A DNA stretch of 64,000 bases from Clostridia bacterium (lineage in GTDB: Bacteria > Bacillota > Clostridia > Oscillospirales > CAG-272): assembly GCA_017625935.1 (NCBI GenBank), contig JAGALA010000053.1:1-64000 (forward strand), written 5' to 3'. Below, piece after piece: positions 19,302 to 37,760 of this stretch (position 1 is the stretch's first letter; each line of letters opens with the position of its first letter). A program made the translations under genes and the position numbers. The notes beneath the pieces are model-generated. The model saw only the letters and a program-made list of their open reading frames with translations, made no database searches and was not told where the DNA came from.

Positions 19302-19427
19302 TCAGTTTTCCTTTTTGAGGCAGGAGTCAAGCTCTTCTAAAAATGATTTGTATGAAAAATCGCTTGCCATTATAAAGTCATTTTTTGAGAGGGAAACAGA
19401 GCCGATGCGCGCGCCGTCTGGGGAGCA
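19302..19427 (-). pseudogene. Displaced original 3' end of nadE
   Basis: This stretch encodes the last 37 or so residues of a nadE reading frame, from CSPDGARIG to LEELDSCLKKEN and a TGA. It is a second copy of the sequence at 19870-19980, which is now the tail of the intact nadE frame. It has no start of its own. Over the shared 110 bases I count seven synonymous codon differences and one Thr/Ser change. It appears to be the ancestral end of nadE, cut off by the element at 19433-19873. Confidence 0.85.
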
Positions 19428-19432
19428 GGGCA

Positions 19433-19873
19433 GGCTCCTTTGTGCAAAGGGAGCTGTCAGCTTAGCTGACTGAGGGATTGGTGAACGATATAATCGATAT
19501 GACGACAAACAGAATTGAAGCTGTCCCATATTTTGTAGTTCGGTATTCGTATAACCCTTATATCATATTTCGAGAGTTCTGTGTCGCGCAAAGAGTCTTT
19601 TTGCGCATGTTCCTCTTCGCTGTGTTGCGAACCGTCAAGCTCAATAACCAATTTGGCTTTCGCGCAATAAAAATCAACAATATACCCATCAATTATTTTT
19701 TGACGAATAAATCTAACAGGGTAATCTTTTAAAAAATCATACCAAAGATGCTTTTCTTCCTTGGTCATGTTTTTCCTGAGTTCCTTCGCGAGAGGAACGA
19801 TGAGCTTGTTGTGTCGCCTGTTCAAGCCAATCCCTCCACCGCGAGCGGTCCCCCTCCCTTTGCACAAGGGAGG
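19433..19873. mobile_element. Candidate mobile unit: DUF559 gene between inverted REP-like elements
   Basis: Left element (19433-19481): hairpin GCTCCTTTG/CAAAGGGAGC, hairpin GTCAGC-TTA-GCTGAC, tail TGAGGGATTGG. Right element (19827-19873, opposite strand): hairpin CCTCCCTT/AAGGGAGG, hairpin ACCGC-TC-GCGGT, tail GGAGGGATTGG. The two tails point inward at a DUF559 nuclease gene that fills the space between them. The whole 441-bp unit is flanked by about 110-bp direct copies of the nadE 3' end. No transposase is present. That the nuclease mobilises the unit is inference. Confidence 0.6.
19457..19825 (-). CDS. DUF559 (Vsr-like PD-(D/E)xK) endonuclease
   Basis: A 122-residue protein of the DUF559 endonuclease family. 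Helical start LAKELRKNMTKEEKHLWYDFL, then the nuclease core GYIVDFYCAKAKLVIELDG with the Asp, Glu and Asp positions of a Vsr-like active site, SQH after it, and RVIRIPNYKIW towards the end. I choose the TTG at 19825 (LNRRHNKL): GGAGGG from the element tail lies 6 bases upstream, and the TTG overlaps the nadE stop (TTGA), so translation is probably coupled to nadE. A longer frame from 19867 would translate the element itself. The gene ends inside the left element, so its last residues (QSLSQLS) are element-derived. Confidence 0.75.
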   Translation of the reverse strand: MNRRHNKLIVPLAKELRKNMTKEEKHLWYDFLKDYPVRFIRQKIIDGYIVDFYCAKAKLVIELDGSQHSEEEHAQKDSLRDTELSKYDIRVIRIPNYKIWDSFNSVCRHIDYIVHQSLSQLS

Positions 19874-21729
19874 CAGGAGTCAAGCTCCTCTAAAAACGTC
19901 TTGTATGAAAAATCGCTTGCCATTATAAAGTCATTTTTTGAGAGGGAAACAGAGCCAATGCGTGCGCCGTCGGGAGAACATGAGCGCTTGAACTGCTGAG
20001 TGAAGAAGCGTTTAATGAACACTGTGAGCCACTTATAAACCGTCTCGCCGCTATATTTGAAGCCAAATGCATAAAGCGCCAAACGGTAAATCTTTGACGG
20101 TGCAAATTTTTTGCCCACAAAGTTGTAAATGAAAAAATCGTGTAGCTCGTACGGACCGACAATGTCCTCGGTTTTTTGCTCAATTTCACCGTTTTCCTTC
20201 GCAGGGAGCAGCTCGGGGGAAACGGGCGTGTCTAAAATATCGTTAAGAATATTTTTCACGTTTTCGTCCGCGTTTTCGGCAAAATGTGCTACCACGTGTC
20301 TGATTAACGTCTTTGGAAGCGCGGAATTTACGTTGTACATCGACATATGGTCGCCGTTGTAGGTTGACCAGCCGAGTGCCACCTCGGAAAGGTCGCCCGT
20401 GCCGATGACAAGTGCGCCAATGGAGTTAGATACGTCCATTAAAATCTGTGTGCGCTCTCTTGCTTGCGCGTTTTCGTAAACAACGCTGTGGTCATTTTCG
20501 TCATGACCTATATCTTTAAAATGAACGCGTGTTGCTTCAAAAATATCAATTTCGCGCAAGGTAACGCCAAGTGATAAGCAAAGCTCCGTCGCATTTGATT
20601 TTGTACGCGCGGTAGTGCCGAAGCACGGCATTGTAATAGCGGTGATTTTATTCCTTTTCCATCCGAGATAGTCCGCGCATTTTACGCAAACGATGAGTGC
20701 AAGGGTGGAGTCAAGTCCGCCCGAGATGCCAAGCACTATTCCCTTGGAATAGGATGCAGTCAGCCTCTTGGCAAGGGAGCGTGACTGCATTGTGAGAATT
20801 TTTTCACAGCGTTTTTTCAGTTCTTCCTTGCCTTCGGGAAAAAAAGGCGTATTTGAAATCTTTCTTGTAAGAGTTGTCTTTTCAAGCTTGAATGAGAAAT
20901 AAATATCCTTTACCGACTCCATATGCGTGCCGAGCGAAATGCGCTTGTTTGTAAGGTAAGAAACGTCAATTTCAGACACGCAGTCGCCCGTTTTCTTTTC
21001 AAACGGCTTTGATTCCGCTAAAATATCGCCGTTTTCCACAATCAAATTGTGTGCGCCGTAAACGCCTGACGTTGTTGACTCATCCTCGCTTGGATTGGCT
21101 ACAATATATGCGCTCTTGGTTGCGTAGCTTCTTGAAATAATTGAAGCGCGTCTTATTTCCTCGCTGGAAACAAGCTCGGACGCACCCGAGAGATTGACAA
21201 TAACCGTTGCACCGTTTTCGCAAAGGAAAAATCCCTTGGGTGACGGATTTTCAACAGTATCACCTATAATAACACCGACAGTTAAGTCGCAAATTTCCTT
21301 GCAGCTAAAGAGCAGGTCTGTGCCAAACGGGTACTTTTCGTCCCCGATGTTTATAAAATCCTTGAAAAACGGCATTTTGCCAAGGTTTGGCACAACGCCC
21401 AAAATCTCACCCGATTTTATTGCAACCGCGCAGGAATAATTATTGTCCTTATAGCGTAACGGAGCACCGACGAAAACCAAAATATCGCTACCCTGTGTCG
21501 CAAATTTGATGTTTAAGAGTGCTTTTTCACACGCGTTTAGGATAACGCTGCTGTAAGCCATCTCGCCCGCGCTGACACCTGTCAAGGTCAGCTCCGGGAA
21601 AACGAGGATTTTTATCCCCTCCGCGATTGATGCTTTGATTTCCTTTACAATCTCCTCCTTGTTGAAGCTGACACCGCCAACCTCAAGGCGTGGGGACACC
21701 GCTTTGACCTTTATATATCCGTCCTTCAT
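19822..21729 (-). CDS. nadE: Glutamine-dependent NAD+ synthetase with element-derived C-terminus
   Basis: A 635-residue NAD+ synthase. The N-terminal nitrilase-type glutaminase domain (about 1-280) supplies ammonia. The C-terminal synthetase domain has the P-loop SGGLDSTLAL, and GTGDLSEVALGWSTYNGDHM for substrate binding. It converts deamido-NAD+ to NAD+ in the cytoplasm. I start at the ATG at 21729 (MKDGYIKV) behind GGAGGA. The last 15 or so residues after LEELDSCL (PCAKGGGPLAVEGLA) are read from the REP-like element, replacing the original KKEN end still visible at 19302-19316. The extension is downstream of the conserved fold, so activity is probably kept. Confidence 0.93.
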   Translation of the reverse strand: MKDGYIKVKAVSPRLEVGGVSFNKEEIVKEIKASIAEGIKILVFPELTLTGVSAGEMAYSSVILNACEKALLNIKFATQGSDILVFVGAPLRYKDNNYSCAVAIKSGEILGVVPNLGKMPFFKDFINIGDEKYPFGTDLLFSCKEICDLTVGVIIGDTVENPSPKGFFLCENGATVIVNLSGASELVSSEEIRRASIISRSYATKSAYIVANPSEDESTTSGVYGAHNLIVENGDILAESKPFEKKTGDCVSEIDVSYLTNKRISLGTHMESVKDIYFSFKLEKTTLTRKISNTPFFPEGKEELKKRCEKILTMQSRSLAKRLTASYSKGIVLGISGGLDSTLALIVCVKCADYLGWKRNKITAITMPCFGTTARTKSNATELCLSLGVTLREIDIFEATRVHFKDIGHDENDHSVVYENAQARERTQILMDVSNSIGALVIGTGDLSEVALGWSTYNGDHMSMYNVNSALPKTLIRHVVAHFAENADENVKNILNDILDTPVSPELLPAKENGEIEQKTEDIVGPYELHDFFIYNFVGKKFAPSKIYRLALYAFGFKYSGETVYKWLTVFIKRFFTQQFKRSCSPDGARIGSVSLSKNDFIMASDFSYKTFLEELDSCLPCAKGGGPLAVEGLA

Positions 21730-21906
21730 ACTTCCTCCTAAGATAAGCATAAATTCATTTTTACAAAAGTACTTGCAATTTTGCTCTATTTACTATATTA
21801 TATAATTATATCTTTAAAATTTCAATAAAAATCTTAAAAAAGTCTTCTATCCGTCACCAATCAATATGGTTTGGTTGCGGCTAAAGAAGCATAGAAAGAA
21901 AATATT

Positions 21907-27470: not shown

Positions 27471-27583
27471 CAGCCTCCCTCCTTGAGGGAGGGGGACCAC
27501 AACGAATCAATAAAAAACACGACCGTGCTTTGTAGGTGGTGGAAGGAGCAAAAACCCCTCAGCAAAAGCCAAGGGGGTATGTT
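27471..27583. repeat. REP-like palindromic element at the kdgK end
   Basis: Hairpin CCTCCCTC-CTT-GAGGGAGG, then GGGACCAC..GTGGTGGAAGGAG with a loop of about 35 bases, then a third small stem CCCCT..AGGGG. This is the same order (G-rich hairpin, ACCRC/GYGGT stem, GGA-tail) as in the nadE, rluD and dapA elements. Confidence 0.75.
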
Positions 27584-31250: not shown

Positions 31251-31314
31251 TAACCTAACTTAATTTTTCAAGTCGATTAAGCAGCTCTTTGAAGCTGTCG
31301 GGCAATTCGCATTC
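31251..31314 (-). pseudogene. Second copy of the rluD 3' end
   Basis: A 64-bp near-copy of 31372-31435. It encodes ECELPDSFKELLNRLEKLS and the same TAG. It differs from the rluD end by two synonymous changes and one Asn/Ser change within the coding part. The REP-like element at 31315-31371 lies between the two. Confidence 0.8.
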
Positions 31315-31371
31315 GCCCACCTCCTTTGAAAAGGGAGGGGGACCGCTGGCGGTGGAGGGATTGGCACTTTG
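31315..31371. repeat. REP-like palindromic element at the rluD end
   Basis: Hairpin CTCCTTT-GAA-AAGGGAG (31321-31337), hairpin ACCGC-TG-GCGGT (31342-31353) and tail GGAGGGATTGG (31354-31364). It matches the right-hand element at nadE almost base for base. Confidence 0.85.
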
Positions 31372-37415: not shown

Positions 37416-37760
37416 TGCACACCTCATCCACCGCAGGCGTTTTTACGCATCAACAATCATCGTTACCCGACTGCGGTCCCCCTTCCCCTCAAGGGGAAGG
37501 CAAGAACTACGCTTGCCACTATGTAAAGCCGAAATAGGCGCAGAGCTTGACAAATTGCTCGAAGTAGAGCTTTGACACACACCTCATCCACCGCAGGCGT
37601 TTTTACGCATCAACAATCATCGTTACCCGACTGCGGTCCCCCTTCCCCTCAAGGGGAAGGCAAGAACTACGCTTGCCACTATGTAAAGCAGAAACAGGCA
37701 CAGAGCTCGACAAATTGCTTGAAGTAGAGCTTTGATACACATCTCATCCACCGCAGACAC
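37344..37760 (+). repeat. 160-bp tandem repeat: dapA 3' end plus REP-like element
   Basis: Unit starts at 37344, 37504 and 37664, exactly 160 bases apart, about 2.6 units in total. Each begins with the 72-bp dapA tail (37344-37415, 37504-37575, 37664-37735). Elements at 37420-37501 and 37580-37661 read, on the minus strand, CCTTCCCCT/AGGGGAAGG hairpin, GGGGACCGC, a loop of about 35 bases, GCGGTGGATGAGGTG tail. This explains the 429-base gap after dapA up to the next gene. Confidence 0.92.
37504..37735 (+). pseudogene. Two extra copies of the dapA C-terminal coding tail
   Basis: Copies two (37504-37575) and three (37664-37735) encode ELRLPLCKAE(I/T)G(A/T)ELDK, then LLEVEL and a TGA in the dapA frame. 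Relative to the real dapA end, copy two has four synonymous changes and one replacement, and copy three has five synonymous changes and one replacement. Neither has a start codon. Confidence 0.85.

Follow-up and report, generated by a model that had tools for sequence, protein, structure and literature searches.

A DUF559 nuclease gene and its inverted hairpin ends as a candidate minimal mobile element in bacteria

A small gene for a nuclease of the DUF559 family lies between two inverted hairpin elements in a stretch of 64,000 nucleotides from a Clostridia bacterium (GenBank assembly GCA_017625935.1, contig JAGALA010000053.1; hereafter the window), and elements of a similar kind occur without a gene elsewhere in the same stretch. 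This raises the question as to whether the gene and the elements form one mobile unit and, if so, whether the nuclease moves that unit or is a passenger in it. DUF559 is a very common family of "unknown function". To our knowledge, hairpin repeats are likewise common in bacterial genomes, and most of them have no known mobiliser except for the REPs that are linked to RAYT transposases. The reading we favour, with a probability of about 0.72, is that the unit is a REP/RAYT-like minimal autonomous mobile element that uses an unrelated PD-(D/E)xK nuclease of the Vsr/EDxHD type.

A gene and its two ends inserted as one unit

The first-pass annotation of the window described the nuclease frame as lying between two elements with inward-pointing tails, one of which supplies the Shine-Dalgarno sequence and the other the last codons and the stop, so that gene and elements form one compact unit of 441 bp. 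The coordinates in Table 1 bear this description out. The tails, GAGGGATTGG, occupy 19472-19481 (+) in the right-end element (RE) and 19827-19836 (-) in the left-end element (LE). The Shine-Dalgarno sequence GGAGGG inside LE is just 5' of the TTG start, and RE encodes the C-terminus HQSLSQLS plus stop. As single-stranded DNA, each of the two elements folds into a pair of hairpins, with energies of -10.4 and -11.0 kcal/mol (z -2.0 and -2.3), and ends in an unpaired tail directed towards the gene. The 10-mer tail by itself is not significant in the window (4 matches at ≤1 mismatch vs. 2.3 expected), and the significance of the elements derives from the recurrence of paired elements over many loci. 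A domain search of the unit returned DUF559 only, with no HUH, DDE or recombinase domain, and no Rfam family matched it.

Table 1 Positions of the DUF559 unit, the nadE target duplication and the solo elements in the window
Feature	Position	Strand	Basis and remarks
Whole unit, LE + DUF559 gene + RE	19433..19874	- (gene direction)	sequence; empty sites in congeners G147, G156
DUF559 (PF04480) nuclease gene, TTG start, 122 aa	19457..19825	-	PF04480 E=2.2e-26
Right-end element RE	19433..19481	+	stem1 GGCTCC..GGGAGC, stem2 GTCAGC..GCTGAC, tail GAGGGATTGG; holds the gene's last codons and stop
Left-end element LE	19827..19874	-	stem1 CCTCCCTT..AAGGGAGG, stem2 ACCGC..GCGGT, tail GAGGGATTGG; holds the Shine-Dalgarno sequence
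Distal copy of duplicated nadE 3' end (target duplication)	19317..19427	-	direct repeat of 111 bp at 92% identity; empty sites have one copy
Proximal copy of duplicated nadE 3' end, still continuous with nadE	19870..19980	-	last 5 bp overlap LE
NAD(+) synthase gene, C-terminus now running into LE	19822..21750	-	NF002730, 660 bits
Decayed solo element near kdgK-like gene	27473..27547 (about)	+	variant with GGAAGGAG tail
Solo LE-type element, same family as the unit	31313..31364 (about)	+	just 3' of rluD-like gene
Solo sister-family element, tail GGATGAGGTG	37421..37500	-	directly after dapA
Second, tandem copy of the dapA sister-family element, tail GGATGAGGTG	37581..37660	-	sequence

What the first-pass annotation missed is that the 3' end of the NAD synthase gene is present twice, as 111-bp copies (~92% identity) on either side of the unit. 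This nadE site is occupied in the window and in congeners G150 and G158; in G147 and G156 the unit is absent and the nadE end is present once. The duplicated part amounts to about 105-110 bp, with a few extra bases at the junctions. At a second site, a unit of the F3 type lies at a gene end between 40-41 bp copies in G047 and G003, and here G065 and G028 have a single copy and no unit. Gene and elements were thus inserted as one unit at two sites with empty-site controls, in agreement with the compact unit first described. Long repeats that are not part of an element flank other units as well (L014, 56 bp, 98% identical; L001, 69 bp, 88%; L058, 45 bp; L107, 30 bp), as do a repeat of about 120 bp, hairpin included, at a Neisseria gonorrhoeae DUF559 gene (L280) and a diverged repeat of about 138 bp, corresponding to the end of a neighbouring gene, at a Sphingobium one (L283). 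Overall, roughly a dozen of the 128 loci show a long target duplication, and most loci have no clear one.

The nadE insertion is an old one. Comparison of its flanking copies gives identities of 0.91-1.00 within a species and of 0.72-0.82 between species, and the copies hence evolve in concert, so that the nadE copy is no evidence for recent mobility. The concerted evolution is suggestive of recombination between the flanking repeats, an event that could also cut out the unit and return the gene end to its former state. The DUF559 gene at nadE has a dN/dS of 0.06-0.16 against orthologues where this is computable (one pair is saturated), and is under strong purifying selection. Such selection at a fixed site, together with the Vsr-like fold discussed below, is what might be expected of a host-domesticated repair or element-restraining nuclease that sits beside repeats it processes without moving them. 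We consider this highly improbable, given that the whole unit is polymorphic (occupied or empty) between congeners and that genomes can hold several copies, of different families.

Nuclease clades and their cognate element families

The genome of the window has four PF04480 copies. Inverted hairpin elements bracket three of them (L001, L003 and L004), and in two of these three cases the elements are of another family, with tail GGATGAGGTG. The fourth copy, L002, lies without an inverted bracket, as does its relative L048. Across 51 loci of the order, the median score of the best inverted match of a gene's own flanks is 19; the median is 8 both when flanks of different loci are paired (cross pairs) and when flanks 1 kb away are used. 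Of 77 independent loci taken from named GTDB genomes, 42 had a score of at least 16, compared with 0/249 far-flank controls and 8% of cross pairs. Paired flanking elements had been proposed as something to look for at DUF559 genes in general, and close homologues do mostly carry cognate inverted elements. About a third of the close homologues have no clear bracket by these measures, with contig edges or decay accounting for some of them. At L049, L023 and L047, the bracketing elements have outward-pointing tails.

A tail motif is present within 90 bp upstream in 75 of 128 loci and downstream in 87 of 128, vs. 27 of 476 background windows. When both sides have a tail, the two are of the same family in 54/61 loci, the shuffled mean being 16 and the maximum 28 (5000 shuffles). 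On a tree of the 128 nucleases, in which few forks are resolved, the six tail families need 12 changes vs. 47 with shuffled labels (0/200 as low), and F3 and F4 are each nearly confined to one nuclease branch (support 98 and 100, respectively). In genome G038, nucleases of the F1, F3 and F5 types occur together, each flanked by ends of its own type, and host ancestry therefore does not explain the match of enzyme and element. We conclude that nuclease clade and element family are cognate pairs. The two ends of a unit are also distinct from each other: typed by the stem2 flank, elements at DUF559 units with the LE-type motif GACGG outnumber those of the RE type upstream (26 vs. 12), with the reverse downstream (14 vs. 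33; Fisher P = 5e-4). Pairing of the tail with the 5' arm of stem1, considered as an IS608-like guide or cleavage interaction, was rejected as cognate combinations did no better than non-cognate ones (permutation P = 0.30).

Within the phylum but outside the close clade, a bracket was found in 0/17 DUF559 frames (about 140-400 aa, with scoreable flanks). The F4-type locus L252 is bracketed, and F4-type elements lie downstream at L251. Nineteen DUF559 records from a plasmid collection had originally been picked as negative controls; these "controls" are often bracketed, and so became evidence for a wider scope. Clear inverted hairpin flanks are present in Sphingobium, Novosphingobium, Sphingomonas (three), Sinorhizobium meliloti, Azospirillum lipoferum, Deinococcus (three) and Pseudanabaena, and none were found among the 19 in E. 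coli, Photobacterium and two other Azospirillum records. The same architecture thus flanks DUF559 in Alphaproteobacteria, Deinococcus and a cyanobacterium, a spread beyond one phylum that the first-pass annotation did not have. The Sphingobium element occurs in many copies, at 113 places across 24 plasmid records from sphingomonads.

Several plasmid loci have individual settings. The bracketed genes of Sphingomonas parapaucimobilis lie within operons (L291, 1465-1875, and L293, 1477-1872; between sufB and sufC, and between transhydrogenase subunit genes), and those of Deinococcus plasmids L281, L286 and L289, whose hairpin brackets resemble one another, lie at three different positions in the region of the hpa operon. 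The S. meliloti gene (L295) sits between inverted ~114-bp double-palindrome repeats, around 1340-1460 and 1920-2040, which presumably resemble rhizobial intergenic mosaic elements. On Synechocystis plasmid L287 (1393-1839), the DUF559 gene is just upstream of the BREX gene pglX.

Dispersed copies without a gene

Solo elements at rluD, kdgK and dapA had been assigned to the family of the unit. This assignment stands for rluD; the kdgK element is a decayed variant and the dapA pair belongs to a sister family, each with its own tail (Table 1). The region after dapA (37421-37660) consists of two tandem long F3-family elements, in which an insert of ~40 bp, identical in both, separates the arms of stem2. 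Of 147 genomes, 34 contain exact F1 stems (CTCCCTTGTGYAAAGGGAG) and 19 contain F3 stems; reversed control patterns gave zero. In a co-occurrence set made up mostly of metagenome bins, and with gene-adjacent copies removed, the mean number of F1 elements is 4.3 in genomes that match DUF559 strongly and 0.5 in the others (P = 3e-6, phylogeny ignored), counts that are lower bounds because exact stems were used. The number of elements, whether single or in gene-less LE-RE pairs of ~100-130 bp, therefore depends on the presence of the gene, as the proposed role of the nuclease in their spread had implied. The types match too, again with phylogeny ignored: genomes with an F1-bracketed gene are rich in F1, and those with an F3-bracketed gene are rich in F3. 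Genomes G097, G102, G072 and G065 have many elements despite no detected DUF559 gene.

Convergent exact-stem pairs are bimodal in length, with 20 of 93-134 bp that are gene-less and 9 of 393-545 bp, all of which coincide with mapped DUF559 genes. The gene-less pairs that were read each consist of one LE-type and one RE-type element. No consistent target duplication was found at about 20 gene-less pairs, L213 being one possible exception and two congener comparisons being too rearranged to read. L233 and L234 (both at about 600-619) contain hybrid single hairpins, with the 5' half of LE and the 3' half of RE or the reverse, which look like deletion scars of LE-RE pairs. In genome G131 (L228, L231, L232, L233, L235 and L236), a larger multicopy repeat, GTCATGACCACCAGCC...GGTGGTTTTCGTGAAC, has an LE-RE pair inside and has spread as a composite.

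Could the hairpins be spread in trans by some other enzyme, such as a RAYT/IS200 or DDE transposase, with DUF559 a passenger captured between them? The elements in genomes with no detected DUF559 gene and the lack of a long duplication at gene-less pairs would fit such an explanation. However, all nine of the long convergent pairs coincide with DUF559 genes and none contains another gene, nuclease clade and element family co-diversify in a layout that recurs across phyla, and the start and stop signals of the DUF559 gene are inside the ends. Taken together, these points make a passenger role unlikely.

The nuclease and its relation to known systems

The AlphaFold model of the nuclease is confident (pLDDT 87). 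By structure comparison it comes closest to I-Bth0305I (E = 1.4e-5) and to the Neisseria protein 3hrl, with Vsr at a probability of 0.99 but a weak E-value; sequence profiles match 3hrl (E = 5e-20) and I-Bth0305I (3r3p; E = 8e-4). The residues E31, D58, E69, D71, H75 and D84 are invariant in the nuclease alignment, acidic residues and a histidine as the fold expects. As modelled, the nuclease thus resembles the homing endonuclease I-Bth0305I and Vsr, and not the HUH transposases of RAYT systems. This agrees with the original proposal of a Vsr-like PD-(D/E)xK nuclease in place of a transposase, DUF559 being the only domain in the unit. With a homing endonuclease as the closest solved structure, and with an old, conserved nadE insertion that shows purifying selection and concerted flanks, the gene might also be seen as a free-standing homing endonuclease gene, copied into allelic empty sites by double-strand-break repair next to hairpins that only regulate or terminate transcription. 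Homing between alleles does not leave a target duplication, however, whereas the gene occurs at many unrelated sites with long target duplications, and the gene-less hairpin pairs are dispersed and gene-dependent. Homing is for these reasons quite improbable.

If, as we favour, the unit is a mobile element driven by its own nuclease, its ends would be the two asymmetric double hairpins, inverted with LE upstream and RE downstream, and the nuclease would be its only protein. The nuclease most likely recognises its cognate ends, with the hairpins probably serving as single-stranded substrates, and most likely nicks both strands of the target at positions tens of bp from each other. After repair and ligation, the unit would be bordered by target copies of about 40-110 bp, together with a few filler bases. 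Acting in trans on gene-less LE-RE pairs, this nuclease may also give rise to the dispersed population. A broader proposal, which we put forward tentatively and at somewhat below even odds, is that DUF559 nucleases represent a new class of transposable elements in several phyla, based on paired, widely staggered nicks by a Vsr-like nuclease on hairpin ends, and that they mobilise at least part of the palindromic repeats without a transposase (e.g. some CGTC REPs). If true, transposition here would follow a route that belongs to none of the DDE, HUH, serine/tyrosine recombinase and target-primed classes, and DUF559 would have a testable role. Of the open-access papers searched, 14 mention DUF559, and in none of them does it appear together with inverted repeats.

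The closest known parallel is the REPtron, in which a RAYT gene is flanked by two inverted palindromic repeats that are also dispersed as singles and inverted dimers, with co-diversifying clades (PMC2817692, PMC3733652). The REP/RAYT analogy originally drawn for this locus holds for the layout: the DUF559 gene likewise has two inverted palindromic repeats as flanks, the repeats are scattered genome-wide as singles and inverted dimers, and DUF559 clade and repeat family co-diversify. Unlike in REPtrons, the enzyme is a PD-(D/E)xK/EDxHD nuclease and not HUH-Y1 (Transposase_17), there is no GTAG at the foot of the repeat (tails here are GAGGGATT, GATGAGG, GGGGTGG, GAGAGGG etc.), and the ends are a double hairpin plus a separate tail. 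IS200/IS605 relatives generate no larger target duplications (PMC2817692); the DUF559 units at the two sites with empty-site controls, unlike these and RAYT, have target duplications of ~105-110 bp and 40-41 bp.

REPs of the CGTC form have a CGTC tag, a stem of 8-9 bp starting with AT, a loop of 4-5 nt and a CCA tail, and these REPs, including the dRS3 and RPE repeats, are reported without a dedicated transposase (PMC3733652). The clostridial LE stem2, read in reverse as CGTC-stem-loop-stem-GCCA, fits this form in part, and the Novosphingobium DUF559 bracket, CGTC-ATTTGC-TGGC-GCAAAT-GCCA, is the sole close fit; RE, on the other hand, has AGTC, and the Sphingobium bracket does not fit. No dRS3 was found at the Neisseria DUF559 gene. 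A possible link between DUF559 and CGTC REPs, suggested by the sequence of one bracket, is a lead only.

With EDxHD/Vsr-like homing endonucleases such as I-Bth0305I, the units share the catalytic fold and the format of a single small mobile nuclease gene. They differ in having no intron or intein, in their hairpin ends, dispersed non-autonomous copies and target duplications, and in occupying many unrelated sites rather than the cognate allele only. The short gene-less elements with inverted ends and an autonomous partner are reminiscent of MITEs of DDE insertion sequences, but their partner is not a DDE transposase, their ends are double hairpins with LE distinct from RE, and the duplications are variable and tens of bp long, not fixed and short. 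The layout, then, is convergent with that of REPtrons, and the unit would be a REPtron variant if any hairpin-bracketed enzyme gene counts as one. It is set apart as new because it lacks the defining traits of REPtrons, homing endonucleases and DDE MITEs, and, given the role ascribed to the nuclease, its enzyme class and insertion signature look like those of a new kind of element.
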